Source of the DNA: a virus
Length of the DNA stretch: 49,327 nt
IMG/VR virus record: IMGVR_UViG_3300049216_000156
Location: 1 to 49,327 of that record
Strand: one strand, 5' to 3'
Made by a program: the position numbers and the translations under genes. The notes below the pieces were generated by a model. The model saw only the letters and a program-made list of their open reading frames with translations, searched no databases and was not told the DNA's origin. How positions within the stretch are numbered: position 1 is the stretch's first letter; every line of letters begins with the position of its first letter. Positions 4,197 through 25,473 of the stretch are shown one piece after another.

Positions 4197-4928
4197 TTAT
4201 CGGCGGCGAACGTCCGGCATGTTAGGTTCGTTATCCGCACCGCCCCAATACAGTTTGCCGCCGTCACGTTGGGCGGCGCTCTGAGAGAAGCCGAGTTCCC
4301 TGTCCGCAAGCAATACCGTTTCGGCGGGCACGAAATACTTGTCCGAGACAAGCTGCTCCCGTCCGGTATCGTCTACCATCCGATATATTTCGCCGATACC
4401 GTTGGGCGAAGTTTGAACATGGAAGACGGGATACTTTTTGTCTGGCGTAAACCGCAGGTTCTTCTGCTTCACTTCCGGCATCATCTGAAGTTCCGGGCAG
4501 AAGAGCATGTACTTGACCGGGCGTAGTTGCCCCTGGTTGTGCGGCTGAACCGCCTGCTGCCCCGATTGCCCCGCCACCGATACATGCTGAGGCTGGGGCT
4601 GGTGGACGAGCGCCTGCGGAGCGGGAGCCTGCTCCATGTCCTCGACGACAATGTTGGAGTTCTCGCCCCAAACGAACTTCTTGTTCTTGATGATGATGCC
4701 GTTCTTCGACTCCCGGAAGGAAATCTCCTTCTTAGACAACTCGAATATCTCGACATCAACTACCCATATGTCCCGGCGGGCATATTGAGTCATAATGGCG
4801 GCAGCCAGCTTCTCCAGCGGCACGTCCTCGAAAGGGTCGCCAATACGCTTCTTCAGCTTCTTGGTTTCTTCCTTGTTGTATTCGCCGTTCGTCTTCTCGT
4901 GGTACGAGTATAATACTTCAAATCCCAT
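4197..4928 (-). CDS. Hypothetical protein downstream of capsid gene
   Basis: This 243-residue protein begins at an ATG that shares one base with the capsid stop (TAATG), so the two genes are coupled. The N-terminal 85 residues look folded (YARRDIWVVDVEIFELSKK). A Gln/Pro-rich linker at about 100-135 and a second small domain follow. The arrangement suggests a head-associated or capsid-regulatory protein, but no family was recognised. Confidence 0.7.
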   Translation of the reverse strand: MGFEVLYSYHEKTNGEYNKEETKKLKKRIGDPFEDVPLEKLAAAIMTQYARRDIWVVDVEIFELSKKEISFRESKNGIIIKNKKFVWGENSNIVVEDMEQAPAPQALVHQPQPQHVSVAGQSGQQAVQPHNQGQLRPVKYMLFCPELQMMPEVKQKNLRFTPDKKYPVFHVQTSPNGIGEIYRMVDDTGREQLVSDKYFVPAETVLLADRELGFSQSAAQRDGGKLYWGGADNEPNMPDVRRR

Positions 4929-6028
4929 TATGCCTCACTTTCGCCCTTAGTTTCCTCCGCTGCTGCTGGGGCTTCCTCAGTTTGCGGGGTCGGCAGATTA
5001 GCCAGTTCGATCAACCCGTAGAAATTGGCTTCGATCAATTTCTTGCCGTATCGGGAATAGAGAACTGTGTGCTGATGGGTTCCGTCTTCCTTCCACCACC
5101 CCGGTTGCTGGGTGAACGGGAGGTACGGACACAGGAAGTAACCGCTGAAGTAATGGTTCCGGGAGTCCTTGAACCCCATCAGAACCTTACCGTCCGGCTG
5201 AAGCGGGGACTCGTAAAGTTCCCACCTGTCTTTCACCTTGCCACGGTACTTTTCCGACAAGCGGAAGTCTTCACCTTCCCCGTCGGCGTCTTCTTTCCAT
5301 TCATTCACGAACGGCTTCAATAGGTTAGTTACGGTCGGGGACGCAACAATCCACGTCGCATCACGCCCTTTTATCTTCGCCCCGATGTACGCACTCATCC
5401 CCTCGATCAACGTCGCCAAAGCGTCCGGGTTCGTGTACTCGGCGTTCGCCTTGCTACCGGCGTTGTTGCTCAGGTCACGGATGACTTCCCTGGTCACGTC
5501 GTTGGCGTACCGCTGGGCGAACCGGGCCGTCTCTTCGGCCTCAAGTTCCAAACTGTGTTGCCCGTCTTCCGAGAGCGTGTTCGGATTCCACCACTCCCTA
5601 CCAACAGAGCGTGTCCGGGACTGAATCAACAAGCTATTCTGGCGTTCGTCCAGGCCCGTGTAGTGGAATCGGTCTTCCGGCTTGCTGATCGCCTGCACCG
5701 ACACCAAGTTGTACGGAAGGAACGCTCCGAACACCCGGCGGATGGCCGGAATGCTCACCCGCCGCCACTGAGCCGGGTTCCAATTGGTTTCTGCATTCGC
5801 TGGGATGGCGTAACTGTCCTTCCCTTCCTCGTTCAACTCCCGCTGGTTCTCCATCAGCCGAGCCACCTGACGGCCCACGAACGGGTCCGACAAACCACCC
5901 AGCAATCCCGTCGTGCCCCACTTCTGGGTGTTCAGGATCGCCTCTTTGATGTAGTTCTCGCTGAAACTCAGAGATCGCATGTTCTCGGCGTCCCGCAAGA
6001 TGTAACTCTTCAATTCATCTTTGGTCAT
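4928..6028 (-). CDS. Major capsid protein (T4 gp23-like)
   Basis: This 366-residue protein carries features of the T4 gp23 branch of the HK97 fold. One is the motif FGAFLPYNLVSVQAISKP near 103. Another is a helix reading ANDVTREVIRDLSNNAGS near 175, which parallels gp23. The last is a C-terminal stretch with LYSRYGKKLIEANFYGL near 330. It is shorter than T4 gp23 (521 aa), as in several distant T4-type phages. The terminal 20 residues are a flexible Ala/Glu tail. The 8 bp upstream of the ATG lack a strong Shine-Dalgarno site. Confidence 0.8.
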   Translation of the reverse strand: MTKDELKSYILRDAENMRSLSFSENYIKEAILNTQKWGTTGLLGGLSDPFVGRQVARLMENQRELNEEGKDSYAIPANAETNWNPAQWRRVSIPAIRRVFGAFLPYNLVSVQAISKPEDRFHYTGLDERQNSLLIQSRTRSVGREWWNPNTLSEDGQHSLELEAEETARFAQRYANDVTREVIRDLSNNAGSKANAEYTNPDALATLIEGMSAYIGAKIKGRDATWIVASPTVTNLLKPFVNEWKEDADGEGEDFRLSEKYRGKVKDRWELYESPLQPDGKVLMGFKDSRNHYFSGYFLCPYLPFTQQPGWWKEDGTHQHTVLYSRYGKKLIEANFYGLIELANLPTPQTEEAPAAAEETKGESEA

Positions 6029-6039
6029 GTTTCATCCTT

Positions 6040-6663
6040 TTATTTTTGAACTAGGCCGGTCCCGTACCTTGTGTCGAAAGTCACCGGGACTCGGTTCTGA
6101 CTTAAACAGAAAGCCTCGAACGCTTCTCTGGCAGGTGTGTGCCGTCCTATGTACTCCGAGACAATTACACCGTTCTCGGACACATAAGGCCAGAGCAAGT
6201 CCAGACGCAACAAGTGCTTGTCGAACCCAACCTCTTCATTAAGTATGACTAAATCCCACGAATTTGGTGATATTTTTTGCGTAAATCCTTCATCTAGCAC
6301 TGTGCCGACGTAAATATCTGTTTTTCCTTTGTAGCTGCTGCGGAGGTTCGCCATCCCCAGGCGGCTGGAGTAGTAGCCGTCGGTTTGTTCCTGGAAGCCG
6401 ATGTAGCGTTCGACGGTCTTGCACGACTTCAGGAAGCAGGCTCCGAGCAGGCCCAGGTTGAACCCCATTTCGATCATGGACTTCGGGGTGAGGAACTTTC
6501 CGAGATGGTAGTAGAAGGGGGCGTACTTGGGATCGGAGTACGCCGCCGACATTCTGGAGGCTTCGTCCAGGAACCGCATCCGGTCCAACAACATACGCCC
6601 ACTGACGAGGCCGCTGTCCAGTATGGGTTTCAACAGAGCCGGAAGTGAATTTATGTCTTGCAT
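6040..6663 (-). CDS. Class I SAM methyltransferase-like protein
   Basis: This 207-residue protein has the fold signature of small SAM-dependent methyltransferases. A motif-I-like loop reads IEMGFNLGLLGACFL near 63. An acidic strand end (SWDLVILNEE) and a further strand with a Gly-containing turn (VSENGVIVSEYIG) follow. The substrate is unknown. It is transcribed away from the UDP-galactopyranose mutase gene; the two starts are about 15 bp apart, so their promoters must overlap coding sequence. Its place at the edge of the glycan island suggests a sugar or lipid acceptor. Confidence 0.6.
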   Translation of the reverse strand: MQDINSLPALLKPILDSGLVSGRMLLDRMRFLDEASRMSAAYSDPKYAPFYYHLGKFLTPKSMIEMGFNLGLLGACFLKSCKTVERYIGFQEQTDGYYSSRLGMANLRSSYKGKTDIYVGTVLDEGFTQKISPNSWDLVILNEEVGFDKHLLRLDLLWPYVSENGVIVSEYIGRHTPAREAFEAFCLSQNRVPVTFDTRYGTGLVQK

Positions 6664-6677
6664 TCTCTCATGAGAGT

Positions 6678-7841
6678 ATGAAATACGACTTCATGATCGT
6701 CGGGGCGGGCTTTTTCGGGGCAACATTCGCAAGAAGAGCGATGGACCTGGGCAAGACCTGTCTCGTCATCGAAAAATCACCCCACGTCGCTGGAGCCGCC
6801 CACGACCAGAAGATGGAGGGGTTGAACGTCAGCAGCTACGGCGCTCACATCTTTCACACCCACGACAAAGACATCTGGGATTTCGTGAACCTGTTCGGAG
6901 AATGGGAGCCGTTCATCAACAAACCCAAAGTTATCGCCGGGGACCGCATCTTCTCGTTCCCCATCAACATGATGACCCTCCACCAAATGTGGGGCGTCAA
7001 AACGCCCGCCGAAGCCCTCGACCGGCTGAAGCGGGTTCAGCTTCCGTGCAGCAACCCCCGAAACTTCGAGGAGTGGGCGCTGTCCAAAATCGGACGGGAG
7101 TTGTACGAAACTTTCATCTACGGATACACCAAGAAACAATACCACCGGGAACCGAGAGAACTCCCCGCCTCCATCGTACAACGACTGCCCATCAGGTTGA
7201 CGTTCGACGAGAATTACTTCACCACCTGCTACCAAGCCATGCCGAAAGACGGCTTCACGGGCATCGTGGAAAACATGCTGGAAGGGGCGGAAGTGCGGCT
7301 GGGGGCCGACTTCTTCGACCTCCGAGACTCCTGGCGACACTTGGCCCACCATCTGGTATACACCGGCCCGGTGGACAAGTTCTTCGACTACCAGCACGGG
7401 AAGCTCGACTATAACACGCTGCGGTTTGAACACAAGATCACGACCGGCGACTTCCAAGGGAATGCCGTAATGAACTATGCGGACGAGGCCGTGCCGTACC
7501 TGCGCACCATCGAACACAAACACTTCATCAACCCGCACCGCTTCAGGAAGCACAACCTGGAATTGGACACGTCCGTGACGGTGGTGTCCTACGACTATCC
7601 GGTCAAGTTCGAGGACCACCCGGAACCGTATTACCCGATTCGGGACGAAAAGAACTCGGCCCTTTACTCGAAATATGTTGGGCTGAAAGAGAATCTGTCG
7701 GACGTGACCTTCGGCGGGCGGCTGGGCGAGTACCAATACTTCGACATCGACCAGACGATGGGATCGGCGATGAGCAAGGTGGGCAAGCTGCTAAAAACAG
7801 AAGGGAAGCCAAAGCAACGAGCTAATGGCTTCCCTTCCTAA
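6678..7841 (+). CDS. glf: UDP-galactopyranose mutase
   Basis: This flavoenzyme (387 residues from the chosen start) converts UDP-galactopyranose to UDP-galactofuranose, the donor for galactofuranose-containing glycans. The N-terminal Rossmann dinucleotide motif is MIVGAGFFGATFAR. The substrate region has GAHIFHT near 60, ETFIYGYTKKQ near 155 and MPKDGFTGIVENML near 195, all typical of prokaryotic UGMs. An ATG at 6645 is in frame, but the start at 6678 places the FAD motif at the usual distance. It heads the plus-strand sugar cluster and implies galactofuranose in the product. Confidence 0.93.
   Translation: MKYDFMIVGAGFFGATFARRAMDLGKTCLVIEKSPHVAGAAHDQKMEGLNVSSYGAHIFHTHDKDIWDFVNLFGEWEPFINKPKVIAGDRIFSFPINMMTLHQMWGVKTPAEALDRLKRVQLPCSNPRNFEEWALSKIGRELYETFIYGYTKKQYHREPRELPASIVQRLPIRLTFDENYFTTCYQAMPKDGFTGIVENMLEGAEVRLGADFFDLRDSWRHLAHHLVYTGPVDKFFDYQHGKLDYNTLRFEHKITTGDFQGNAVMNYADEAVPYLRTIEHKHFINPHRFRKHNLELDTSVTVVSYDYPVKFEDHPEPYYPIRDEKNSALYSKYVGLKENLSDVTFGGRLGEYQYFDIDQTMGSAMSKVGKLLKTEGKPKQRANGFPS
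7801..7836 (+). terminator. Hairpin overlapping the end of glf
   Basis: An 11-bp perfect inverted repeat (7801-7811 with 7826-7836) overlaps the last codons of glf. Only a weak T-rich stretch follows. It may be a terminator that also reduces readthrough into the next cluster. The next 230 bp (7842-8066) hold no convincing gene; they contain an AT-rich TATTTATT near 8003 that could belong to a promoter for 8067. Confidence 0.5.
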
Positions 7842-8066
7842 TTGGTGTTGTTCACCGTTTGGATGTCGCTCGGTCGCTGACTCACGGGGAATCATCCCAA
7901 CCCTGTATAAGCTAAACACCCGCTGCGAGTTCGGTGATCCAGCATCCATACAGGCAGCCGGAACCCTTGACCCTCGACAGATGAAGACAAACTCGGTCGA
8001 TGTATTTATTGCGGTGTGTTGAGAAAAGAAAAAGACTTCGGTGCAAATATCACGAAAAGGAATCGA

Positions 8067-9143
8067 ATGTACGACATCAGCTTCATTATGCCGGTCTGCG
8101 ACTCGACCAAATACTACTACAAGCGGTTTCTCGACCTGAAGAAATACTGTGCGGTCAACAGCGAGGGACGCACCGTGCGGTGGAAACTGCTCGTCGGGCC
8201 GAACGAAGATTTCTACGGCATCGACATGACGGAGGGGTGGCCCTCCAACATGACCGTCGAAATCGTCAGGTCGCCGTACCTGGACCCGTCGCAAAAAATC
8301 TCCCACTACTACACGCAGATGACCGACGAGGAAATCGCCTCGGCCCGGTGGCACGCCAAGTTCGACGACGACACCGCCACCGACATCAACAAACTGTTGT
8401 ATTTCCTCGACGACGAACTCGACTACACCGACAAGCACTATCTCGTCACCGAGTTGCGGCGGGAAGTCGAGAAGATCGAGAACGACATCCTGACCGACAT
8501 GGGCTACGGCCAGTGGATCACCGACGACCGGCTGATCCACGAGTGGGAAGGGTGTATCGCTTCCCAGGCGGCGATGGCGGCGGTCCAGAAGAACGAGAAG
8601 GCGCAGACCTACCTGAAACGACGGATGGCGATCAGGGGCGGCTACGGCGACCAGCCGGTTGCCATCGCCATGCGGTTCTGCAAGATTCTCCCCATCAACC
8701 CGCTCTACCTCAGCGTGTGGGCCAAACCGTCGGAATTCACCCTGTTCGGCGGGCAGTTCGCACACGTCCACTTCTTCCTCGGCAGGAGCGAGATGGCCGT
8801 CCGCTCGATGGATTTCTTCAAGTGCCTGATCGACAAAAAAGACATCAAGGAAATCAGCGGCAAAATCGTCAACACGGACTGGACGTTCAAAAAGGACGAG
8901 AACCACGACAAGAAGATCAGCCTGTGGGACAACAACGTCATAGCGGCGGTCAACCACCACACCGGGAAAGAACACAAGATCGGCATGTGGACCGTCTACA
9001 AGGACAACCGGCTGGCCCTCGTGTTCGGCGGCAGTGGGTGCGGGGAGGCCGTGAACGAACTTCAGGCGACCGATAAAACCTACAAACTGTTCACCGGCAC
9101 TTGTCTGGAGAGCAAAAACAACATGACCCTGGAGCCTCGATGA
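8067..9143 (+). CDS. Glycosyltransferase-like protein (GT-A, DDD motif)
   Basis: This 358-residue protein opens with a beta strand typical of nucleotide-sugar glycosyltransferases (ISFIMPVCDST). It has an acidic metal-binding triad FDDDT at 99-103 at the position of the DxD motif. A WEGCIASQAA loop and a GGYGDQPVAIAMR segment complete a GT-A-like layout. ATG 8067 is preferred over the upstream in-frame ATG at 8016 because an AAAAGGA site precedes it and the fold begins there. The stop overlaps the sulfotransferase start (ATGA). Donor and acceptor are unknown. Confidence 0.7.
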   Translation: MYDISFIMPVCDSTKYYYKRFLDLKKYCAVNSEGRTVRWKLLVGPNEDFYGIDMTEGWPSNMTVEIVRSPYLDPSQKISHYYTQMTDEEIASARWHAKFDDDTATDINKLLYFLDDELDYTDKHYLVTELRREVEKIENDILTDMGYGQWITDDRLIHEWEGCIASQAAMAAVQKNEKAQTYLKRRMAIRGGYGDQPVAIAMRFCKILPINPLYLSVWAKPSEFTLFGGQFAHVHFFLGRSEMAVRSMDFFKCLIDKKDIKEISGKIVNTDWTFKKDENHDKKISLWDNNVIAAVNHHTGKEHKIGMWTVYKDNRLALVFGGSGCGEAVNELQATDKTYKLFTGTCLESKNNMTLEPR

Positions 9144-9868
9144 AAACAGCCGTCGTATCCATTCCGAAGACCGGCACTTACTTGGTCGGCGAAATACTCA
9201 AGTGCCTGGGCCTCTCCTTCCGGGGGCACGTCTCCACGCACGACTACATGCAGAGCTTGGACCTGGAAACGCTCCGCAGCGATCCCGACAAAGCCCTCGT
9301 GCCCATCGACTTCGACCGCTTCCTGGAATCGGTCTGGGACAACGAGTTCGTCGTCGGCCACTTCCCGTGCGACGGCAGGGTCAGGAACAAACTGCACGGG
9401 TGGAAGACCGTGTTCACCCACCGGGAACTCCGGGATGTCGTCGTAAGTTGCACCCGGTACTACTCCAAAATAGTCGGGCTGCGGTCGCCCCACGTCGAGA
9501 AGGCCAAACTGTTCAAATCCCTTCCGCTCGGCGAAGAGAAGATTAGCCTCTGGTTCGAGTTATGGGGGCGGGAGTATTCCAACCTCGCCCACGCCATGAA
9601 GGATTGGCCCGCCTACGCCCACGCCGTTCGGTTCGAGAACGTGGCCGGACTGCGGGGCCGGGACAAACAAATAGAAACAATCATCGCCCTGTGTAACTAC
9701 CTGGAAGTCCCTTTTGTCGATTCGGAACTTGCCATGTTGATCGACAAGTGCCTAGCGACCGAAACGGTGACATCCACCGGCAAACTCAGCAACTACACCG
9801 AAGTGTGGACGCCCGCCCTGGAAGACCTTTTCGTCGCCTACCGATTCAACGAAGTTATCCTGGAGTGA
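9140..9868 (+). CDS. Sulfotransferase family protein
   Basis: This 242-residue PAPS-dependent sulfotransferase-like enzyme would transfer sulfate to a glycan or other hydroxyl. The 5'-phosphosulfate loop SIPKTGTYLV lies at residues 7-16. The 3'-phosphate site is TVFTHRELRDVVVSC near 90. The start at 9140 overlaps the previous stop (ATGA) and places the P-loop at the correct N-terminal distance. It is the middle gene of a coupled three-gene set (glycosyltransferase, sulfotransferase, radical SAM), so the product may be a sulfated sugar. Confidence 0.85.
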   Translation: MKTAVVSIPKTGTYLVGEILKCLGLSFRGHVSTHDYMQSLDLETLRSDPDKALVPIDFDRFLESVWDNEFVVGHFPCDGRVRNKLHGWKTVFTHRELRDVVVSCTRYYSKIVGLRSPHVEKAKLFKSLPLGEEKISLWFELWGREYSNLAHAMKDWPAYAHAVRFENVAGLRGRDKQIETIIALCNYLEVPFVDSELAMLIDKCLATETVTSTGKLSNYTEVWTPALEDLFVAYRFNEVILE

Positions 9869-9869
9869 A

Positions 9870-11195
9870 ATGCTGAAAGTATCCCGACAGCCGACCGTCG
9901 CCGACCACCTGCTCGGCAAGCAGCGGCAGATCGTCATCACCAACGTCTGTAACCTGAACTGCGGCGGCTGCAACCAACTGATCGGGAACTTCGCCAAAGA
10001 CCAACTCTGGTTCATCCCGCTGGAAGAGTTGGAGCAATCCATCGGACTGCTGGAGCGGTATCCGGCGACCAAACCCGAAAACCATCCCATCACCATATTC
10101 GGCGGCGAACCCACCCTCCACCCCAAATGGAAGGAGATCGTGGCGATGCTCAAACGGCACGCCCCGACCGTGTTCTGGATCAACACCAACGGGCGACTCG
10201 GCCACCAACGATACCAGAAAGAAGACAACTTGGTGTTCTGGGTGGACCTCCACCCGGAGAGCCAACTGTTCGTCCAAACCCTGTACGCCGCCCAGGACGC
10301 CATCGACCTCCCGACCGACATGGCGTATTGGGAAAAAGCCCAAAAGGACTGCCCGCTCTGGAACGGGTGTCAATCGTCCATTTACAACGGCAAGGTCTAC
10401 TTCTGCGAAAACGCCGGGCCGATGGATCACCTGTTCTACGACGGGAAATACGGTTGGAAAATAGACCCCAACAAACACCCCTTCGACCACACCAAAGAAG
10501 AAATCGACGAGCAGGCCAAGAACTTCTGCAAGCGATGCGGATGGTGCGTAACCGAACTCGTGCCACGACAACTGAGCCGCAATCCCAGCAACATATCCCC
10601 GTCCAATGCCGAAGGTATCAAAGGCCGACACGCCCTGCCCGTTGTACAAGAACCTACAAAAACACTAATGTGGGACCGGCACGAGGGATCATATCTTGTG
10701 CCGCCGCCCTCCGTAGGTGTCTACAGACTAGGCAAAAATGTCTCGCCGCAGGTGACGGAAAAAATACAAGAACCGAGTTGGGCAGGTATTGTACAGTATA
10801 CTGTAGATTCAGTAGACAAGCATAAAGTATTGGAAGAAGTTAAACATAATCAGGAATGGACAATACTGTTAGATGCTAATCAGGTTATACCAAATGCGGC
10901 ATATACAGCAATACTTAATTGGATGTTGCTGGAGAAGACCAAGGATAATCCCAGGTCACATATGAGCATTCCCGTGTACAACATACCCGTAGATCAATAC
11001 GACCCAGACATGAAAGAGCCGGGCGGTCGGGCCACGTCGGTGATCGTAGCCTTCCACCGCACTTCCAAGGAAGTCTACGACGACGGAATCTACGAACGAT
11101 TGGGCCACAGGAAGATCGACGAGGGGAATGGGCGCACCGCCCTGTGGCACGACAAGGCCACCGACATCGTGGGTGGCGTAGTTACATTAACTTAG
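9870..11195 (+). CDS. Radical SAM protein with Cys-rich auxiliary region
   Basis: This 441-residue protein has the radical SAM cluster motif CxxxCxxC at C27-C31-C34 and a GGEPTLHP motif near 75. Further cysteines near 167-185 and a CKRCGWC group near 220 suggest an auxiliary Fe-S cluster. Residues about 265-440 form a separate domain. Its DNA from roughly 10640 to 10940 is much richer in A/T than the flanks, with different codon choice, as if it had another origin. ATG 9870 follows the sulfotransferase stop by one base. It overlaps the convergent gene by 14 bp. The reaction is unknown. Confidence 0.85.
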   Translation: MLKVSRQPTVADHLLGKQRQIVITNVCNLNCGGCNQLIGNFAKDQLWFIPLEELEQSIGLLERYPATKPENHPITIFGGEPTLHPKWKEIVAMLKRHAPTVFWINTNGRLGHQRYQKEDNLVFWVDLHPESQLFVQTLYAAQDAIDLPTDMAYWEKAQKDCPLWNGCQSSIYNGKVYFCENAGPMDHLFYDGKYGWKIDPNKHPFDHTKEEIDEQAKNFCKRCGWCVTELVPRQLSRNPSNISPSNAEGIKGRHALPVVQEPTKTLMWDRHEGSYLVPPPSVGVYRLGKNVSPQVTEKIQEPSWAGIVQYTVDSVDKHKVLEEVKHNQEWTILLDANQVIPNAAYTAILNWMLLEKTKDNPRSHMSIPVYNIPVDQYDPDMKEPGGRATSVIVAFHRTSKEVYDDGIYERLGHRKIDEGNGRTALWHDKATDIVGGVVTLT

Positions 11196-11856
11196 TGAAT
11201 TTCTTGTAGTGCGAAATCATCTTGAAGAACGGGCTGTAGCCGTCCCGGTCCACGCCCGGAATCACCTGGGGGACCACGCCCGTCTTCCAGGACGCATACG
11301 GCAAACTGATCTGGTCCCGGCGGGAATATCGACATATCTGGTCCCACCAGAACGAAGATAACTTGTCGAATTCGGGCGTCTTCCTCATCACCAGACAGGA
11401 CGTGCTGTAAAGGCCCAGGTCGTCCGGGAAGCCCTCGGCCTCGTACTGTTCCATCTGGGCCAGGAACAACCGCCTGCTGTCCATGTTGTGTCTCATGCAC
11501 TCTTCGGCCTCGTCCTTGACCTTGGTTCGCACTTGATGTCGCATAGACGCAATGTGCGACACGGAATCCACCAGCGGCCTGAGACTTTGGTAGGGCCAGT
11601 GGGTGGCGTCCAACCACACCGCACATTCCGCCTGTGGGAACAACTCGAACGGGTGGTGCTTGTGGTAGCGAGAAATCCGGGTTGGATCGGCCAAACTGCC
11701 GACTACTGAGGGGCGAATCTCCCAATCCGGGGCGTAGATGTCGGGCGTGTCGGTAAACAGAACGTATCTGAAGCCGTCGTCCTTGAACTCGATACGCTTG
11801 GGCCGGTCCCGGTTCGCCAGGACACAGGTGTAGAGAATTACTTCGTGTGAAGCCAT
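11182..11856 (-). CDS. DUF616/TOD1-like glycosyltransferase
   Basis: This 224-residue protein resembles the DUF616 (TOD1/MUCI70-type) glycosyltransferase-like group. Supporting motifs are FTDTPD near 34, a RYHKHHPFELFP stretch near 62 and AVWLDATHW near 80, where the LDA replaces a DxD-like site. A C-terminal LPYASWKTGVVPQ segment is also typical. It overlaps the upstream glycosyltransferase-methyltransferase gene by 19 bp and is the last gene of a long minus-strand run, so it is probably co-expressed with it. Confidence 0.7.
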   Translation of the reverse strand: MASHEVILYTCVLANRDRPKRIEFKDDGFRYVLFTDTPDIYAPDWEIRPSVVGSLADPTRISRYHKHHPFELFPQAECAVWLDATHWPYQSLRPLVDSVSHIASMRHQVRTKVKDEAEECMRHNMDSRRLFLAQMEQYEAEGFPDDLGLYSTSCLVMRKTPEFDKLSSFWWDQICRYSRRDQISLPYASWKTGVVPQVIPGVDRDGYSPFFKMISHYKKFTKLM

Positions 11857-13268
11857 GTTCGCCCCGCCTGTCCGATCTCCAGGTTCTTACCGGCAAAAAA
11901 CTCGTTGACGGCCCGTATGACTCCGACCTCACTCCCCTTGTGCCCGGCAACGTAGTCGTGACCGCTGATCTTGCCGCCCTTCTTGACCTTCGGATACCAA
12001 TGCTTGATGTCGTCCAACACGTCCTTGTAGAAATGGGATGCGTCGATGAAAACGGCGTCTAACGACTCGTCGGCGAATTGAGCCGACGCCTCGATAGACG
12101 GCATCCTCATCGGCTTCACCATGTCGTCCACGCCGCCCTGTTTCATGTGGTTGAGGAACGTCGTGTATAACACTTCGTCACCCCCCAGGTCGGAAATCAG
12201 TTTGCGGTGTTCGTCCACGGGACTGCCCTTCCAGGTGTCCACGGCGAACAACTCGGCCTGTTTGTTTCTGTTTTTGAACTCGGTCGCCAAGTAGCAAATG
12301 GACGCCCCCTGCCACGAACCGACTTCGACAAAACGGCTACCGCTCGGCAGTTCCCAGGCGAATTGCGAATACTGGCCCCGGTAATCGAACCACCCGTGAA
12401 TCTTCTGCCAGTAATCGTTGGGCTTACCGTGCTGTCGGGATGCGTAATTGGGAAACGCTTCTTTCGGGTTGTCGATTTGCCAAATCAGACGGTCCAAAGA
12501 TTCATTCCTGAGCCGGATACGCAAGGCTTGGTCCGTCTCGATCTCGTAACTACTGCCCGTGACGTGGTGGACCATACCCACAGACTTGCACAGGTTCTCG
12601 TGCAACAACGTGTGGTGTTTGCCGCTCTCCTGACTGTGACCTAGTTCGTACAGAAGTCGTAACTTGTCGCCTTCACCGAAGGGAAGGTTTTCGTCGAAGA
12701 ACCTGTCGCTGTCGTGGCGGAAGATCAGCATCGGCTCGGCCAGTTGCATCGGCTCACTGGAAGTGCGGGCGTGATCGAACGTGGCACGGGATGACGGGGT
12801 GCTGTAGAACTTGCGGCTGCGGTTCACCTTCTGGTCGGCTTTGATTTCGCCCGTGATGTTGTCCCATAACGGCTGACTGAAGAAGCAGTCGCCGTCGAGG
12901 ACCATCGTGAATTCGGAAAGTAACTGACCGTGACGGATCGCCAAATTCCTCGCCCGGTTGATGCCCACCACCTGGGTGATCTTCTCGGCCCGGCTCTTGG
13001 CCTCCAGGTACTTCTGACGCCATATGGGTACTATGACGTAATACATATTACGTTCGGCGAGCATACGGCAAATATGCTCTCTGCGTTCCCGGTCGTGGAC
13101 GCAATTCACGATCCAACACTTCGTAGCATTGGGGAACTCAGGCTCGTTGTCCAGGATGAACTCCAACACCCGCAGTCGGGCGTCGGGTTCGTCCCGTGGG
13201 GGCGTCTCGTTCCCCAATATCCTGAATATGGAGTATTTCTTGTACTTCGGCGGTTTCAGAAACATCAT
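11838..13268 (-). CDS. Glycosyltransferase-methyltransferase fusion
   Basis: This 476-residue two-domain protein has an N-terminal part (about 1-230) reading as a GT-A-like transferase with RARNLAIRHG and LDGDCFFSQ, the latter a DxD motif. The C-terminal part (about 300-476) is a class I SAM methyltransferase with FVEVGSWQGASICYLATE and IDASHFYKDVLDDI, like the Methyltransf_24 group. The start is taken at 13268, where ATGATG overlaps the previous stop (ATGA) and a GGGAGA site sits upstream. A longer frame to 13340 exists but overlaps the neighbour. The fusion suggests transfer and methylation of one sugar by one protein. Confidence 0.75.
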   Translation of the reverse strand: MMFLKPPKYKKYSIFRILGNETPPRDEPDARLRVLEFILDNEPEFPNATKCWIVNCVHDRERREHICRMLAERNMYYVIVPIWRQKYLEAKSRAEKITQVVGINRARNLAIRHGQLLSEFTMVLDGDCFFSQPLWDNITGEIKADQKVNRSRKFYSTPSSRATFDHARTSSEPMQLAEPMLIFRHDSDRFFDENLPFGEGDKLRLLYELGHSQESGKHHTLLHENLCKSVGMVHHVTGSSYEIETDQALRIRLRNESLDRLIWQIDNPKEAFPNYASRQHGKPNDYWQKIHGWFDYRGQYSQFAWELPSGSRFVEVGSWQGASICYLATEFKNRNKQAELFAVDTWKGSPVDEHRKLISDLGGDEVLYTTFLNHMKQGGVDDMVKPMRMPSIEASAQFADESLDAVFIDASHFYKDVLDDIKHWYPKVKKGGKISGHDYVAGHKGSEVGVIRAVNEFFAGKNLEIGQAGRTWLHTK

Positions 13269-14083
13269 GACAGTGTTTTCTCCCGCCGGGTGTTGTTGTA
13301 ATCCATCTTGTTGTTCTTGTCCGAGAACTTGCCGGACCACGGCGGTTCCACCAGACGCCGTTCCAGGTCGGTACGGGCCAGCGGGACGTACTGTTCTTGT
13401 TCCCGTGGGTCACGCCACGTCATGAAGCCGGGGCAGAACTTGTAGTAGGTGATGATGCGGCTGTAGCCGGGGTTGTTCCATCCCGTGTCGCCGTGGACCA
13501 GACTCTCGGAAAACACAACAAGGTCGCCGGGATTGAGGGTCGGGATCGTGATGCACTCGTGATCCATTCGCCCGTTCAACAATTGCTTGCGGACTTCACT
13601 GCCGGTGCGCATGTCCAACGACCTGTGACTGCCGGGGATGTAACACATGCCACCCGTGGCGGGGGATTGGGCAGCCAGGGAAACGCCACACGACAACTGG
13701 CCGGTCATCAACTGGTTGTCCACCTGGGTGAAGCAACTGCCGAAGCTGGAGGACGGCCCGCCGTGAAGGTTCACCAAACCGGCATCACTGCTGACGGAGA
13801 AGGCGTGATCCATGCGGAACTGGTCGCCGCACAGTTGTTCGACCAGGGCCAACATCGTCGGGTTCGTCATCATGTCCCAAAACACTTCGCCCAGGTTCAG
13901 GACCGGAAACTTCCAGGGCTTGATGCCGGGGTGAACGGCGTCGATGGCTTTCTTGGCGGCTTCGATCTGGCTGGCTGGGAATACGTTGCGGAGGACGACA
14001 AGCCCCATGCAGTCGAAAAGATAAACGTCGAGCGGCTTCAGGTTGCCCCGGAGCGGGATCGGCTTGGATGTCACGAGTAGCAT
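13265..14083 (-). CDS. PhyH-type Fe(II)/2OG dioxygenase-like protein
   Basis: This 272-residue protein looks like the phytanoyl-CoA dioxygenase superfamily. It has GLVVLRNVFP near 27, a cupin core with GGMCYIPGSHRS near 155, and the distal metal/2OG region ESLVHGDTG ... RIITYYKF near 205. The usual first ligand motif HxD reads LHGGPS here, so the Asp is absent or lies elsewhere. A non-canonical or inactive site should be considered. It sits inside the glycan operon, where such enzymes can hydroxylate sugars, lipids or amino acids. Confidence 0.7.
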   Translation of the reverse strand: MLLVTSKPIPLRGNLKPLDVYLFDCMGLVVLRNVFPASQIEAAKKAIDAVHPGIKPWKFPVLNLGEVFWDMMTNPTMLALVEQLCGDQFRMDHAFSVSSDAGLVNLHGGPSSSFGSCFTQVDNQLMTGQLSCGVSLAAQSPATGGMCYIPGSHRSLDMRTGSEVRKQLLNGRMDHECITIPTLNPGDLVVFSESLVHGDTGWNNPGYSRIITYYKFCPGFMTWRDPREQEQYVPLARTDLERRLVEPPWSGKFSDKNNKMDYNNTRREKTLS

Positions 14084-14090
14084 GAATACC

Positions 14091-14795
14091 TCAGTAAATA
14101 GCCCTGACCATTTTGATGTCCCCGATGGCGTCCAAGAACTTGTCCGGGTCGTGGGTCAGTTCTTGGAACAGGGCTTCTTCAATGGATTTGTGGTCGATGT
14201 TATCGTAGTAACCGCTGTCGAAAAGGCGGAACCCAAGCCCCCGTGATCCGGCCCCGTGGTGGTAGAAAGAGTTCCAATACACCCCGCCCAATATCGGGTG
14301 TCGGTTCACCTTGTTGCTCCTCAACAAAGGAAAGAACTCCGTCACGTTTGACATCGTATCCTGGAACTTTCGGCCCAGCAGGTTCACCCCGTCGCTCACA
14401 GAAAACCGGACATTCGACCGACCCATAAAAAACACACAGGGGTGGGCGAAAGTATCAAGGTTCTCGTAGCGGACGGCGGCAGCAATGGGATACCGGCTCA
14501 GTCGCCCGAACCAGTCGTCCCGGATCGGAAAACAATCACTGTCGATAAGGAGCAAGCGGTCGTGACTTGTAGTATGAAAGTAATCAATAAGGGCGTTCAA
14601 CCCTTCGGCGTGGGCGGCACTACCTGTCAATACGGCAGATCGCCTTATAACCTTTGAACTTGTATAGATGTCATTGTCACCGTTGAGAAATACAACGTGT
14701 GTATAATCCTTGGTAGTCCTACGAAGATATTTCATCTGTAAGTCGTACCACACTGCACTTCTTGTATGGTCCGTGAAGACCGACCCGACCATCAT
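14091..14795 (-). CDS. Glycosyltransferase-like protein
   Basis: This 234-residue protein has LLLIDSDCFPIRDDW near 97, a DxD-containing strand end typical of GT-A enzymes, preceded by HAEGLNALIDYF. The start ATG overlaps the stop of the deacetylase gene (ATGA). Part of the downstream half has GGVYWNSFYHHG, often seen around acceptor loops. The specific family was not recognised. Confidence 0.65.
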   Translation of the reverse strand: MMVGSVFTDHTRSAVWYDLQMKYLRRTTKDYTHVVFLNGDNDIYTSSKVIRRSAVLTGSAAHAEGLNALIDYFHTTSHDRLLLIDSDCFPIRDDWFGRLSRYPIAAAVRYENLDTFAHPCVFFMGRSNVRFSVSDGVNLLGRKFQDTMSNVTEFFPLLRSNKVNRHPILGGVYWNSFYHHGAGSRGLGFRLFDSGYYDNIDHKSIEEALFQELTHDPDKFLDAIGDIKMVRAIY

Positions 14796-15406
14796 AAAAG
14801 CCTCTTTTTCACGAGTTCGCTGAAAGTTACCAGCTTGGTGCGACTCATGAGAATAGTGTACAAATCTCTAATGATTGACCATTCTTGTATTTCGTAAGTG
14901 TGTCCCCAAATTACCAATCTTTCCTCGTTATCAATTAGCTGATTGATGTCTTCATCCCATTTGCCGTTGGGACCGAGCAACAAGTTGTAATTTCCGCCCT
15001 TCTGGGTGGTGCGAGCGTACTCGTACTTTTCACTCTGGAGCACCCGCAGGGCGGCGGGGGTGTGGACGCCGTAGGGATAGCAGAAACCTGGGATCGGGCG
15101 TTGGAAGATGTCTTCCAGGGCTTTGCGCCCGTCGTTGATTTCTCGTGTCGTATCTTCCGGGGATGTCTTGCCCAGATCGACGTGGTTGGCGGTGTGATTG
15201 ACGATCTCGAAGTCTGCTAGTTCCGACAACTCGGATTTAGACAGACAGACGCCGTAAGCACCCCGAAGGTCGTTCGGGGTGCGACTGGCTTTGTGTTTGT
15301 TGGGGGATATGGCGAAGGCGGCGGGGGCGTTCAACTCACGAAGAATCTCGATCAACTTCAGGTCCGTGACCAGCCCGTCGTCCCACATTGTTGCCGCTTG
15401 GATCAT
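14792..15406 (-). CDS. Polysaccharide deacetylase-like protein (NodB fold)
   Basis: This 204-residue protein has the metal-dependent NodB layout. TMWDDG at 6-11 corresponds to the TFDDG motif 1. NHTANHVDLG near 70 corresponds to the H(S/T)xxH motif 2. PGFCYPYG near 105 corresponds to motif 3. It probably removes acetyl or formyl groups from a sugar. The start overlaps the methyltransferase stop by ATGA. Compared with cell-wall deacetylases it lacks a signal peptide, so it acts inside the cell, consistent with building a glycan rather than degrading the wall. Confidence 0.75.
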   Translation of the reverse strand: MIQAATMWDDGLVTDLKLIEILRELNAPAAFAISPNKHKASRTPNDLRGAYGVCLSKSELSELADFEIVNHTANHVDLGKTSPEDTTREINDGRKALEDIFQRPIPGFCYPYGVHTPAALRVLQSEKYEYARTTQKGGNYNLLLGPNGKWDEDINQLIDNEERLVIWGHTYEIQEWSIIRDLYTILMSRTKLVTFSELVKKRLL

Positions 15407-16266
15407 ACAGAAAGTATGTAGTCAACAAACTGAAGCGACAACTGCCATTCGGGGAACGGGTCCATCCCGGTGTGCTTGAGGATGCGTTGGGCCACCAGAC
15501 CGTTCTTGAAGAAGTCTTCGACGGGTTCGGTGTGATCCACCCGGTTGACGATCTTCAGGCCCGCCTCGTTGATCCAGGCTCCGTATTCCCTCAACGGATA
15601 TTTGACGCCCAAACTCTTCTCCGGGGCTTCCGGGGCGAGTTGATTCAACTCCTCCGGGGAGAACACGATATGGGCGTATGCCTTGTTGAGATTCCTGTAA
15701 ACGTGCGTGGCGTGGCGGGATGTCCACGGGTGAAACCGCAGGTAAATACGACCCGTCGGCTTCAGAACCGCCTTCATCTTTTTGAGGGCTTCGACGGGAC
15801 TCTCGCCGTCCAGGTGGTCGAGCGTGTCGAAACACAAGATCACGTCGTAAGACCGTTGGGCCACGTCCTCGAACTTGGTGGTGAAGGTCGCCCCGGCGTC
15901 CGGGAAGCGACCAGCCCAGCCGTGATCTTTGGCGTCGTAGCCGACGGCCTTGGCTTTAGACTGTTGGGCGTACAGAACGCTGTGGCCTTCGCCGCACCCG
16001 TAGTCGAGGAAGTCCAAATCCTTCAGATTGTCTTCGACCAAGAGATCGACGATCCCCCGGCCCCGTTCGGTCTTGTTGTTTTCGGAGTCGTCGCAAATGA
16101 GGGACGGATCGACGGCCCAGGGCCATGTGTTGAGCAAAACCTTCAACTGGTCGAACTCGGTCGCCGGTTTCGGGGGTTCGCTCAACGCCTGAACCGGAGG
16201 TTGGTTCAATCGCTTCAGGTCGGCGAGAACGCCTTCCAGTTTCGTGATGATGCCGTCGAGTTCCAC
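15403..16266 (-). CDS. Class I SAM methyltransferase
   Basis: This 287-residue protein has SAM motif I as LDYGCGEGHSVLYA near 87, followed by VGYDAKD (motif II acidic end), DVILCFDTLDHL (motif IV) and LKPTGRIYLRFHPW (motif VI). The N-terminal 60 residues look helical. It belongs to the coupled minus-strand series and probably methylates a sugar or lipid intermediate; the substrate cannot be told. Confidence 0.8.
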   Translation of the reverse strand: MELDGIITKLEGVLADLKRLNQPPVQALSEPPKPATEFDQLKVLLNTWPWAVDPSLICDDSENNKTERGRGIVDLLVEDNLKDLDFLDYGCGEGHSVLYAQQSKAKAVGYDAKDHGWAGRFPDAGATFTTKFEDVAQRSYDVILCFDTLDHLDGESPVEALKKMKAVLKPTGRIYLRFHPWTSRHATHVYRNLNKAYAHIVFSPEELNQLAPEAPEKSLGVKYPLREYGAWINEAGLKIVNRVDHTEPVEDFFKNGLVAQRILKHTGMDPFPEWQLSLQFVDYILSV

Positions 16267-16269
16267 TTG

Positions 16270-16908
16270 TTACTCCTCGTCCCCGGACAGGTAATACTCA
16301 GGGGGGTACATTACGACTTCGACGCCCTTCTGCTCGAAGAGCCAGCGGGAGCCGTGGCTGTAGTCAGCGCCCCAATCAATCACGAACACCTTCTTGATTC
16401 CGGCGTTGATGATGAGTTTCGTACACTCGAAACAGGGGACGCCGCACCAGCAGAACATATACGCCCCGTTCAGGTCGTCCGAACTGTTGACGATGGCGTT
16501 GGTTTCGGCGTGGGCACAACTGCACAGTTCCAGCCGCTTGCCCGACGGCGCACCGACGATCTTCCGGGGGCACGTCTTCCCGTTCGCCCACTTGTCGCAC
16601 ACCAGTTGACACTGCTGTTCGTCGGTGTCGGTGGGCGGGTTGCCCGCCACGGGCAGGGAGGCGTTGACGGCTTTGGCCTTCTCGACGGGATCGAGTTGCG
16701 GCCAGAAGATGTTCTTCAGGTATTCCGGGTCGTCGCAGTGCGGCGTACCACGGGGCGGGCCGTTGTAACCCGTTCCCAACACCTTGCCGGAACCGTCCTC
16801 GTGAATTCGGACGACCACGACACCGATTTTACGACTGTAGCAAGGGTTCTTGTCTTCACCCACCTGCTTCGCCAGACGCATGTATTTGCCGATCCACTTA
16901 CGCTTCAT
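16270..16908 (-). CDS. dCMP deaminase-like cytidine deaminase
   Basis: This 212-residue Zn-dependent deaminase would convert dCMP to dUMP for thymidylate synthesis. The catalytic HAE motif is in CSCAHAETNAIV near 138. The two Zn cysteines are in GVPCFECTKLI near 162. A large insertion between the N-terminal strand and HAE (about 60-130) contains extra Cys and His (PHCDDPEY, CQLVCDKW), as in T4-type enzymes with a second Zn site. Start 16908 is preferred over the upstream in-frame start at 16953 because homologues begin near this point. Confidence 0.85.
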   Translation of the reverse strand: MKRKWIGKYMRLAKQVGEDKNPCYSRKIGVVVVRIHEDGSGKVLGTGYNGPPRGTPHCDDPEYLKNIFWPQLDPVEKAKAVNASLPVAGNPPTDTDEQQCQLVCDKWANGKTCPRKIVGAPSGKRLELCSCAHAETNAIVNSSDDLNGAYMFCWCGVPCFECTKLIINAGIKKVFVIDWGADYSHGSRWLFEQKGVEVVMYPPEYYLSGDEE

Positions 16909-17097: not shown

Positions 17098-17320
17098 GGG
17101 GAGCCGCCTGAATCGTGAGGATATTGAATTCCCCGGTCTGGTCCCTGCCGAACTCGATGATCGTCCCTTCAGAGATAACGGGGTAATCGCTCAAATCCAG
17201 GATAACCGGATCAATATCTTCGAGCAAGTCAAACACGCCCTGGTCGTTGAACAGGTCCACGACGTAGTTTCCTTGATACTTAGAGGTCACTACGCCCTTG
17301 TACTTCTTTCCCGGAATCAT
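17087..17320 (-). CDS. Hypothetical small beta-rich protein
   Basis: This 77-residue acidic protein has alternating short strands (KYKGVVTSKYQGNYVVDLF and GTIIEFGRDQTG), suggesting a small OB/SH3-like barrel. Its ATG overlaps the stop of the ADP-ribosylglycohydrolase gene (ATGA). No function is assigned. Confidence 0.6.
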   Translation of the reverse strand: MIPGKKYKGVVTSKYQGNYVVDLFNDQGVFDLLEDIDPVILDLSDYPVISEGTIIEFGRDQTGEFNILTIQAAPHED

Positions 17321-18165
17321 GCGTATTTCGCTCTCAACTTGGCGTCGAGTTCTTTGAGGTAATCCCGCCCGTATTTCTTGTTCTCAAGATTGGCGTACAG
17401 GTGGTCCGGGATATTTTGCTCGATCTCACTGCTCCAGACGCCCGCAGCCACGGCGATAGTCGCCACCGTATCGACATCCCCGGTGAAAGCGACCGAACGC
17501 TGCAACACGTCGGACATCGTGTTCTCCGTCACCAACGCCGTGATCGCAGCGTGGACGCAGTGCCAGCCGAGCGACCGAACGTAAGGCTTATCCCACAACC
17601 CTTCCAGTTGAGGGACGGCACACTGAGCCGCCAGCCAGCCGCCCAGGTCGGCCTTCGGCCCCATGTTGTAACGGAAGTAGTGAACCATCAGGGCCGCACA
17701 GTACGAAGACGTGCGACCGGCCAACGTGTCGTGCGTCAGAGCCGCCTGGATGTCGTTGCGGCGACGAATCTCCCGTCTGTCGGGGAGCAGACCCAGCGGC
17801 CCGGCCCGCATCGCAGCCCCGGACTTCTCGCTGTCGGGGCGGATGTTCTCCAAGAAGGTTTCACCGTCCGGGGTGTCCAGAAGGAACTTGTAGAACCCTC
17901 CGTTGTAACCTCGGCGTTCGTCTCGGTGGAAGCAGTCCACGAACCGCTGGGCGATACTCAACGGCGTAAACTCGTCGTCCTCCACCAACGCTTCGGCGAT
18001 GGCGAGCGTCATCTGCGTGTCGTCGGTGTAGTGACCCGTGGGAACCAGCGAAAGGTTCTTCCGGTGGTTGACGTACTGGAGGTTGTTGTTGGACTCCACG
18101 AAGTCCCGGTCGGCACACTCGAAGCCCGCCCCGTAAGCGTCGGCAATTGCAAGTTCAACTAGCAT
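17317..18165 (-). CDS. ADP-ribosylglycohydrolase (DraG/ARH family)
   Basis: This 282-residue enzyme would remove ADP-ribose from proteins, nucleic acids or small molecules using two Mg ions. The metal motifs are present: GHYTDDTQMTLAIAEAL near 43-59 and GDVDTVATIAVAAG near 229-242. The second motif reads GDVDT where GDTDT or GDSDT is usual, but both Asp ligands are kept. Only three genes separate it from a macrodomain gene on the same strand, giving two ADP-ribose-directed enzymes in one operon. Confidence 0.88.
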   Translation of the reverse strand: MLVELAIADAYGAGFECADRDFVESNNNLQYVNHRKNLSLVPTGHYTDDTQMTLAIAEALVEDDEFTPLSIAQRFVDCFHRDERRGYNGGFYKFLLDTPDGETFLENIRPDSEKSGAAMRAGPLGLLPDRREIRRRNDIQAALTHDTLAGRTSSYCAALMVHYFRYNMGPKADLGGWLAAQCAVPQLEGLWDKPYVRSLGWHCVHAAITALVTENTMSDVLQRSVAFTGDVDTVATIAVAAGVWSSEIEQNIPDHLYANLENKKYGRDYLKELDAKLRAKYA

Positions 18166-18362: not shown

Positions 18363-18568
18363 ACGAACACGAACGATGTGATGTCGAACAGCTTGTCGCA
18401 CCGTGCGCACTTCGCCGTCACCTTCCACTCCTTGTCGGTCTTGTCCCTCGACAAGACCGCCTTCATGTTGCCGTGTACGGCTGAAAGGGCATGGAATCGG
18501 TTCCACTCCCCGCAATTAGAACACCGACACTCCACCTGCATGTGGATTTCTGCTTTGGCCCCGTCCAT
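18359..18568 (-). CDS. Zinc-ribbon protein
   Basis: This 69-residue protein has two CxxC knuckles, CSNC near 16 and CARC near 54, typical of a small zinc ribbon. Such proteins bind nucleic acid or act as adaptors. Its ATG shares one base with the macrodomain stop (TAATG). Confidence 0.65.
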   Translation of the reverse strand: MDGAKAEIHMQVECRCSNCGEWNRFHALSAVHGNMKAVLSRDKTDKEWKVTAKCARCDKLFDITSFVFV

Positions 18569-19251
18569 TATGCTTCTCCGAATACGGATTCCGGCTCACG
18601 GTACGGGAGGCCACGCCTGAGAGCGTCGTGCCAGCACGACGACCCGGCGATGTCGTGGAACGAGTGGGGCTGGTTTTCAACGACCACCCGGTAGGCTTCC
18701 CGCATCTGGAACGCCGCTATATTGTACGGCAAACGGCCAATGGCGGTTCCCAATCCCGGACACAGGACGGACTCGATGAGTTCGGCGGCGACGTTTCTTT
18801 CCGAACGGATCGTTTCAAATTCGGCGAGGCGCAAGGCGTTTTCGTTGTAGCGTTTCACTAACCGGAGGATCGCCCGCATCGCCAGATAAGCGTTGATGCT
18901 GCCCGTGATGGTCATCGGGACGTGCATCGTGGGGGCCGAGATCAGCCACTTGTAGGGTTCGGTTTCAACACCGATTGGAACGTAGACCGCCTCGCCGACC
19001 GGCAACTCTCCGTCGTGCTTCTCGTAGAGGTACTTCTGGAGCCGGTCCTGAAGCTGCCACCCGAAGCGTTTCGAGTAGGCAAGGTCGATGCCGCCGTTCA
19101 TCCAGCCCGAACTGTTCGCCGGGCTGACAATGGCATCAGCGGCAACATCGAAGATGTCACCAACACCGATCTCGACATCGGGGACGCCACGGAAGTAAGC
19201 CTTCCATGCGTCGGCCATCTCCTGATTACGGTCACGAAGAATTAGTTTCAT
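18568..19251 (-). CDS. Macrodomain protein
   Basis: This 227-residue protein binds or hydrolyses ADP-ribose-type ligands. Typical macrodomain features are DAIVSPANSSGWMNGGIDLAY near 37 (shown in part; the Asn and GG loop contact ribose) and a late Gly-rich loop LCPGLGTAIGRL near 163. The C-terminal 40 residues extend past the core. It heads the cassette ending in the ADP-ribosylglycohydrolase, so a shared ADP-ribose role is likely: reversing ADP-ribosylation or destroying a cyclic-ADPR-type alarm signal. Confidence 0.85.
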   Translation of the reverse strand: MKLILRDRNQEMADAWKAYFRGVPDVEIGVGDIFDVAADAIVSPANSSGWMNGGIDLAYSKRFGWQLQDRLQKYLYEKHDGELPVGEAVYVPIGVETEPYKWLISAPTMHVPMTITGSINAYLAMRAILRLVKRYNENALRLAEFETIRSERNVAAELIESVLCPGLGTAIGRLPYNIAAFQMREAYRVVVENQPHSFHDIAGSSCWHDALRRGLPYREPESVFGEA

Positions 19252-19658: not shown

Positions 19659-20117
19659 TTATTTCTTGGACTCTCGAAACTCCAACCTCACATACAGAAA
19701 GATAGTTTCATCCTTCCGGTAGGACGTGTAGTTGAAATTCAGCGTCACGGGCTGCTTGACCTTGATCCAGATTTCGACGGCCTCGTTGGAACCGTACCGC
19801 TGGGCCACCTTGATGTTTTGTATCGTCACCAGTTCGTAACTCTCACAGGACTTGAAGTAGTCCCACTTCTGGTCCCACTTGGCGTCCAGGTGAATGCAGG
19901 TGATGACATCCGGCTTCAGCTTGACGACTTCCTTGTGGTTACTCTGGTAGATGTCATTCTGGATCAGTTGTTCGTTGCGCCCGTCACGGACGCAGCCGAC
20001 GATCCCGAAGATGCCCCACACCAGGAACACCACGACGGCCAGCCCCAGAAAACTGAAGCCGAGATTCTGGATGACAACCCACTTGTGTTCCGGGTCATTG
20101 ACCCATCTTCTGGACAC
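19659..20117 (-). CDS. Membrane-anchored hypothetical protein
   Basis: This 152-residue protein has one transmembrane helix at about residues 20-40 (FSFLGLAVVVFLVWGIFGIV). A soluble domain follows with strand-rich sequence and one Cys pair. The start is a GTG at 20117, overlapping the preceding glycosyltransferase gene by 23 bp. No family was recognised. Confidence 0.6.
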   Translation of the reverse strand: MSRRWVNDPEHKWVVIQNLGFSFLGLAVVVFLVWGIFGIVGCVRDGRNEQLIQNDIYQSNHKEVVKLKPDVITCIHLDAKWDQKWDYFKSCESYELVTIQNIKVAQRYGSNEAVEIWIKVKQPVTLNFNYTSYRKDETIFLYVRLEFRESKK

Positions 20118-24835: not shown

Positions 24836-25391
24836 TCTCGTTACGCTCCCGGTACTCCATATCGAACGACTTCTTCAGGGGCAATTGTAATACAACGTCG
24901 TGCGACCCGGAAGCCGAACATTGGTCGGTGATATTCCAGCCGGTCACGCCCAAGTGCATCAACGGCACGGTTACTTGTAGGTTCGGCATCAGCCGGTCGT
25001 CGGCCCAGGCGTCCTTGAAGCTGAACCACTCGACCCGCTCGGTTTCACCCTCACGGGGCTGAGGGTTGCGGCTGTCATACGGGTCCACGTCGAGGCGAAT
25101 GCAGTGGATGATAAATTGCCCGCCCTTGTGCGGGCAAACCGGACCCCATATTTTGCCGCAGTAAACCGGGGGCTGGTTCTCAAGCGGCGTCAGTCCGGCC
25201 TCTTCCTTCAACTCCCGGATCGCAGCGGTAATGGGGTCTTCGCCGTCTTCGACTTTGCCGCCGATGAGGTTGAGTCGGCCCTTCTGCCACGCCGGGCGGT
25301 CTTTGAGGACGAGCAACACGTCATCGTAGGCTCCGTCCACGTCGATTCTGCGGGTGTGGACGACGACATATTCCCTGGGTTGTTCGGACAT
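24828..25391 (-). CDS. Nudix hydrolase
   Basis: This 187-residue protein has an intact Nudix box: GKVEDGE followed by REL and EEAGL near 46-68, matching Gx5Ex7REUxEExGU. It would hydrolyse a nucleoside diphosphate linked to another group, such as oxidised dNTPs, NAD(H), ADP-ribose or a sugar nucleotide. Start 25391 puts the fold at the normal N-terminal distance; the frame extends to 25499 but crosses a hairpin. With the macrodomain and ADP-ribosylglycohydrolase genes about 7 kb away, ADP-ribose is one candidate substrate. Confidence 0.85.
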   Translation of the reverse strand: MSEQPREYVVVHTRRIDVDGAYDDVLLVLKDRPAWQKGRLNLIGGKVEDGEDPITAAIRELKEEAGLTPLENQPPVYCGKIWGPVCPHKGGQFIIHCIRLDVDPYDSRNPQPREGETERVEWFSFKDAWADDRLMPNLQVTVPLMHLGVTGWNITDQCSASGSHDVVLQLPLKKSFDMEYRERNENA

Positions 25392-25410
25392 GAATGATCT
25401 CCAAAATGAA

Positions 25411-25438
25411 ACACGGCAAGGAATATACCCTGCCGTGT
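25411..25438 (-). terminator. Hairpin between sigma-like gene and Nudix gene
   Basis: There is an 8-bp perfect inverted repeat (ACACGGCA, 25411-25418, with 25431-25438) and a 12-nt loop. On the minus strand it is followed by TTTCATTTT, compatible with a modest terminator, and could instead be an operator controlling the Nudix-helicase genes. Confidence 0.5.
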
Positions 25439-25473
25439 ATTGTAAAGTTATGGGAGCTAGTTGTCGATAGGTT

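Follow-up and report, generated by a model that had tools for sequence, protein, structure and literature searches.

A probable glycan-building and tailoring island next to a conserved UDP-galactopyranose mutase in a lineage of large phages

The DNA analysed here (the window) spans the entire IMG/VR virus record IMGVR_UViG_3300049216_000156, with a length of 49,327 nt. The record carries a T4-type core, made up of a gp23-like capsid protein, a gp32-like SSB, UvsX, a DnaB-like helicase and a family-A polymerase, together with eight tRNA genes. Within this core lies an island of ten genes arranged in two convergent operons (Table 1). The plus-strand operon encodes a UDP-galactopyranose mutase (UGM), a GT-A glycosyltransferase, a sulfotransferase-like protein and a radical-SAM protein. 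The minus-strand operon encodes a methyltransferase, a deacetylase, a glycosyltransferase, a PhyH-type dioxygenase, a glycosyltransferase-methyltransferase fusion and a TOD1-type glycosyltransferase. The initial annotation, made from the sequence without database searches, had listed these glycan genes and described many of them as linked by ATGA overlaps. Indeed, the UGM, the glycosyltransferases, the radical-SAM protein, the PhyH protein, the deacetylase and two methyltransferase domains were all recovered where it had placed them, and four such overlaps were found (at 9140, 13265, 14792 and 15403). We consider it highly probable that the interval is a phage island for the building and tailoring of a glycan.

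Table 1 Genes of the island, of its two borders and of the nearby capsid protein
Feature	Position	Strand	Match or motif
gp23-like capsid protein	4928-6028		
Conserved methyltransferase-like core gene (left boundary)	6040-6663	-	PF13578 0.068 only
UDP-galactopyranose mutase (Glf/UGM), near-core gene of the phage lineage	6678-7841	+	PF03275 5e-68
GT-A glycosyltransferase of an uncharacterised family, proposed galactofuranosyltransferase	8067-9143	+	Confident GT-A model; no Pfam family
Sulfotransferase-like protein	9140-9868	+	PF00685 0.0032, below curated cut-off
Radical-SAM protein with extra C-terminal domain, kind unassigned	9870-11195	+	PF04055 5.1e-8; CxxxCxxC
TOD1/MUCI70 (DUF616-type) glycosyltransferase	11182-11856	-	PF04765 2.8e-10; phrog_26101 (glycosyltransferase) 4.7e-15
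Probable glycosyltransferase-methyltransferase fusion	11838-13268	-	C-terminal half Methyltransf_24, PF13578 1.3e-20
PhyH-type dioxygenase, HygX-like	13265-14083	-	PF05721 9e-9; PDB 4xcb/4xc9 5e-11
GT-A-like glycosyltransferase	14091-14795	-	IDSDCF; phrog_1579 (glycosyltransferase) 1.4e-4
Polysaccharide deacetylase, NodB-type	14792-15406	-	PF01522 3e-15; PDB 4hd5 9e-6; DD and HxxxH
SAM methyltransferase, Methyltransf_23	15403-16266	-	PF13489 3.5e-16
dCMP deaminase core gene (right boundary)	16270-16908	-	PF00383 2.5e-14; collinear in LR756511.1

The four glycosyltransferases and the sulfotransferase counted at first fared unevenly. Two of the glycosyltransferases are clear and two are weaker by sequence family; in the fusion protein, the N-terminal half matches a glycosyltransferase family at only 0.036 (PF13896), and the whole protein is 34% identical to a record of a 735-kb uncultured phage. 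As for the putative sulfotransferase, its assignment is weak by family alone, with a sub-threshold Pfam match, and draws on its motifs, namely a PAPS-loop SIPKTGTY (PKTGTY) with HRELRDVVVSCTRYY and a HRELRDVVVS motif; a sequence search of the PDB gave no relative of this protein. In NCBIfam, the radical-SAM protein matches only generic radical-SAM families, and no close relative of it was found in viral or genome contigs. Relatives of the PhyH gene were sought in the same two kinds of contigs, and none were found. Among solved structures, the PhyH protein is closest to 4xcb/4xc9, which we take to be HygX, a hygromycin-type aminoglycoside oxidase/hydroxylase that acts on sugar rings. A halogenase assignment based on the HxG motif was dropped because 4xcb has the same HGG motif. 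Two further glycosyltransferase-like genes lie outside the island, one with DUF6065 and GT8-like matches (20095-21660, minus strand) and one GT-A-like with a proline-rich tail (37780-39267, plus strand).

The mutase has a full-length FAD-dependent fold and scores 229 bits against PF03275, for which the cut-off is 26.3. Its best match in the PDB is E. coli Glf (1I8T, 2.8e-109, 372 residues aligned). The catalytic Arg/Arg/Tyr/Asp and the flexible-loop residues are present (RLPIR, PYLR..EHKHF, GRLGEYQYFD); in the flexible loop, the window has a Tyr where E. coli has a Trp, and the orthologs have either residue. The catalytic residues are kept throughout the UGMs of the lineage, including a His at the site of an Arg in the C. 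jejuni mutase 4mo2, presumably a UDP-GalNAc mutase. The position of the gene is also conserved. Counting only loci whose flank on the relevant side reaches 5.5 kb, the UGM adjoins a core gene of the left-boundary type in 47 of 54; among the non-redundant full-flank clusters, it does so in 20 of 27. One contig (G019) has no UGM at the usual place and carries one elsewhere. On a well-supported core-gene tree, the presence of UGM requires four changes, and the second-closest relative of the window (L081) is devoid of it; loss or replacement of the gene therefore happens. Throughout one subclade (e.g., L098, L114, L128), UGM is found without a neighbouring island.

Directly downstream of the mutase, the partner GT-A transferase has no match among 50,697 named phage records. 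Its homologs in the lineage are located either directly downstream of UGM (the window, L078, L089, L094, L097 and L120) or beside uvsX. Twenty homologs share an invariant DxD (100/102), HExE, GxGD (192-195) and HxH (233/235). Profile searches detect the family in 11 of the 20 UGM-positive clusters but in none of the seven UGM-negative ones (Fisher p 0.02). With only three phylogenetically independent pairs behind the association, the co-occurrence is suggestive. A structural model built from the 20-sequence alignment (pLDDT 82, pTM 0.81) supersedes one built from eight sequences (pLDDT 69.5). Compared with the PDB by Foldseek, the best match of the model is Aspergillus fumigatus GfsA (AfGfsA, 8yrl, 1.6e-9; TM ~0.45, 12% identity), followed by chondroitin synthases and B3GalTs of GT31. 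This match establishes a GT-A/GT31-like fold rather than the donor. A sequence-profile search did not find GfsA, its best weak match being another GT31 enzyme, C1GalT1 (E 0.32), and a profile search of the PDB with the first alignment of the family gave nothing useful. The residues described for GfsA are D260/D262, the base D335, H379, H380 and W384, and Gly334, just before the base, is a GfsA-specific change that replaces the usual acidic residue (PMC11538602). By sequence order, D100/D102, G194-D195 and H233/H235 of the phage protein are arranged as D260/D262, G334-D335 and H379/H380 of GfsA. UDP-Galf is a supported, model-based candidate for the donor. Likewise, galactofuranose chemistry in the island, already part of the initial annotation, is supported by the conserved catalytic residues of UGM and by the GfsA-like transferase alongside it. 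That galactofuranose is indeed transferred seems somewhat probable.

A common core order was seen in 30 UGM-bearing viral contigs and 80 gp32-bearing contigs, as far as each extends. It starts with g36, uvsX and gp32, continues through a pair of small conserved genes to the left-boundary gene, UGM and the variable island, and ends with the dCMP deaminase, dnaB and polA genes. The left-boundary gene occurs with or without UGM and has a 45% counterpart in LR756511.1, a 595-kb uncultured huge phage; as a core gene independent of UGM, it was ruled out as a member of the island. The core order of LR756511.1 is identical, at 27-59% identity to the window, and the island is absent. There, three small genes (~1.3 kb) separate the left-boundary-type gene from the dCMP deaminase gene, and no UGM was found in the entire record. 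Because this phage keeps the core order without the island, the interval corresponds to an insertion that separates two core genes of the phage, and 6678-16266 is its exact extent relative to the collinear core of LR756511.1. The enzyme kinds found here are common in bacterial polysaccharide loci, as would be expected if the interval were a host-derived genomic island or an assembly artefact rather than phage DNA. This explanation is extremely improbable, since tens of contigs of other sample origin, as well as LR756511.1, keep the flanking core order, and the GC3 of the island resembles that of the core. Membership in a host genomic island, which the initial annotation had set as a refutation of its proposal, was thus tested and failed, the core being collinear on both flanks. 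The island DNA is owned by the phage rather than by the host.

Past the UGM, genes are exchanged between phages, yet they come from recurrent enzyme kinds. In one clade, the island is filled by GT9-type pairs. That of G003 contains a carbamoyltransferase, GT_PLOD, WbsX and a radical-SAM protein, and that of L096 a 2OG oxygenase, a hexapeptide transferase and a glycosyltransferase. A radical-SAM protein is also present in the island of L081, and sulfotransferases in those of L140, L078, L122 and, weakly, L115. Homologs of the Methyltransf_23 protein are found in the islands of G003, L078, L096 and L125. Such a spot could also be an insertion-tolerant one at which unrelated morons have accreted without forming a single pathway. 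Most island genes of the window indeed lack homologs in the lineage's other loci, the genes form two separate operons, and UGM stands alone in one subclade and in Pootjesviridae. Accretion of this kind is nevertheless unlikely, as the same enzyme kinds occupy the spot in different phages, the genes of the window overlap translationally, and L078 repeats the set of the window (UGM, GT-A, sulfotransferase and methyltransferase) with diverged sequences.

The acceptor of the glycan was approached by elimination. No membrane segment over the hydrophobicity threshold was detected in the 13 glycan proteins of the window, and one marginal segment was seen among the ~50 proteins of other islands. In view of this absence of hydrophobic segments, polymer assembly across a membrane is unlikely to be encoded in the island. 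This bears on the possibility that the module remodels the host surface by altering the polysaccharide or lipid-linked precursors of the infected cell, e.g., as a barrier to superinfection or to adsorption onto debris. Phage serotype-conversion systems are known to act on host surface glycans, and enzymes of the UGM, deacetylase, WbsX, carbamoyltransferase and sulfotransferase types are typical of surface-polysaccharide loci. The lack of membrane segments, however, means that the island has neither a flippase, a polymerase or an exporter nor a membrane-bound initiating transferase. Serotype conversion is, moreover, usually a lysogenic trait, whereas this large lineage, with its T4-type replication genes, looks lytic. 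Remodelling of the surface is therefore considered rather unlikely.

DNA, another target named at first, is disfavoured. Hypermodification, with bases of the phage DNA carrying the glycan in the manner of T4 or RB69, would fit the T4-like replication genes and the dCMP deaminase gene that flanks the island, and unusual sugars are known to be attached to phage DNA (PMC6024577, PMC12838424). Against it, PF00303 (thymidylate synthase/dCMP hydroxymethylase) is absent from 22 related records of up to 381 kb, perhaps incomplete, and a C5-methyltransferase is found in two distant relatives only, which disfavours the known routes to glycosylated DNA. A search for Tet/JBP was given no weight because its control gave no signal. 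Furthermore, we know of no DNA-modification pathway in which a sulfotransferase and a deacetylase take part. Modification of DNA is thus regarded as very unlikely.

By elimination, and from the capsid gene nearby in its clade, a virion protein would be the likeliest acceptor, a choice that is tentative and has a little less than an even chance. In the clade of the window, gp23 sits two genes away. Most relatives lack it at the locus, and this nearness is thus not general. In G017, a relative of the window, the Gp23 capsid-family match is found at two places 79 kb apart (L144, L145), perhaps a split gene or the result of an intervening sequence. Collagen-like fibres were considered as acceptors and set aside, since GXY-repeat proteins occur in G012, G009 and G002 and are absent from the window and its closest relative, G001. 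Those of G012 (L032-L043, 138348-144509), like the ones in G009 and G002, are long proteins with collagen-like G-x-Q-G repeats.

A planctomycete host is plausible on the basis of a DUF1559 pseudopilin-type protein (40628-41728, plus strand; PF07596 1e-36), of a family that is typical of planctomycetes and is also encoded in G015 and G016. A full-length elongation factor Tu is encoded by the phage (48045-49223, plus strand; TIGR00485 above cut-off); its best matches, at ~63%, are to many phyla and give no host signal. One stretch of the minus strand encodes an ADP-ribosylglycohydrolase (17317-18165), a macro-domain protein (18568-19251) and a NUDIX protein (24828-25499), which possibly counter an ADP-ribose-based host defence. 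An aspartate carbamoyltransferase (30077-31000, minus strand) lies above one NCBIfam cut-off (TIGR00670) and is conserved in G012 and G009. On the plus strand, a short class-II aminoacyl-tRNA-synthetase-like protein of the glycine/histidine type (39553-40269) is encoded near the phage tRNA genes, and a ClpS-like protease adaptor (45606-45935, ~5e-13) stays under the equivalog cut-offs.

Taken as a whole, the island may best be explained as a cytosolic module that places galactofuranose onto a phage-made acceptor and whose later genes are exchanged, although as a complete account this reading falls somewhat short of an even chance. In this phage-encoded module, which would build and tailor a glycan in the cytosol, UGM would convert UDP-galactopyranose to UDP-galactofuranose, and the partner GT-A transferase would pass galactofuranose to the acceptor, most likely a virion protein. 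The remaining glycosyltransferases would lengthen this glycan or add branches to it, and it would be modified by the deacetylase, the methyltransferases, the sulfotransferase, the PhyH oxygenase and the radical-SAM enzyme. With the UGM step retained and the later genes exchanged among related phages, the decoration would vary in the manner of serotype loci. Of the phage pathway for a sulfated, methylated, furanose glycan proposed at first, the phage-owned island for glycan building and tailoring stands; that all the genes contribute to one glycan that is sulfated, methylated and furanose-containing is what we infer. The donor of the transferase, the single pathway, the acceptor and a role in immune or receptor evasion are likewise presumed parts of the scheme.

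A broader statement is more doubtful and is held with low confidence. Here, a widespread, uncultured lineage of large phages would produce galactofuranose of its own by means of the conserved mutase, transfer it with a new galactofuranosyltransferase family, and generate phage-specific virion glycan serotypes by island swapping, with sulfation, methylation, deacetylation, oxidation, radical chemistry and carbamoylation as the swapped tailoring steps. Few systems of phage glycan decoration are known, and a mutase fixed in place across a diverse lineage, beside a swappable island with sulfotransferases, oxygenases and radical-SAM enzymes, points to steady selection for a changing, surface-like trait. 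Moreover, the mutase-transferase pair is small and soluble and, if the proposal is true, would include the first galactofuranosyltransferase family of prokaryotic viruses.

The initial annotation knew of no described phage system of this kind. This has to be narrowed, as phage UGMs and virion glycosylation are both known; a conserved UGM with a swappable island containing sulfotransferase, dioxygenase and radical-SAM genes is undescribed as far as open-licence papers reach. UGM genes have been described from Pootjesviridae and from other phages (PMC6630229, PMC10611076). In the best-matching records, the UGMs of Pootjesviridae (phiM9, RL2RES), Atu_ph04 and phages of Aeromonas and S. suis are 37-46% identical over ~90%. 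In phiM9 and RL2RES, the gene adjoins an amidase, and no glycosyltransferase or tailoring gene is annotated in the vicinity, whereas the UGM of the window is positionally conserved beside a glycan island. GfsA of A. fumigatus, a GT31-like beta-1,5-galactofuranosyltransferase, resembles the modelled phage transferase in its GT-A fold and in the order of the DxD, Gly-Asp and His motifs, but the two are only ~12% identical and differ in the C-terminal region. To our knowledge, no UGM-anchored island with sulfotransferase, deacetylase, PhyH and radical-SAM genes belongs to mycobacteriophage glycosylation. Capsid and tail glycosylation of mycobacteriophages (Freeman et al. 2023, cited in PMC12619734) does provide a precedent for the target, as phage enzymes decorate virion proteins there. 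The moraphages have Bacteroidota hosts, and the text describing them mentions neither a mutase nor sulfotransferases; like the present lineage, they are large phages of aquatic origin, and their core genes include several glycosyltransferases (PMC12619734).
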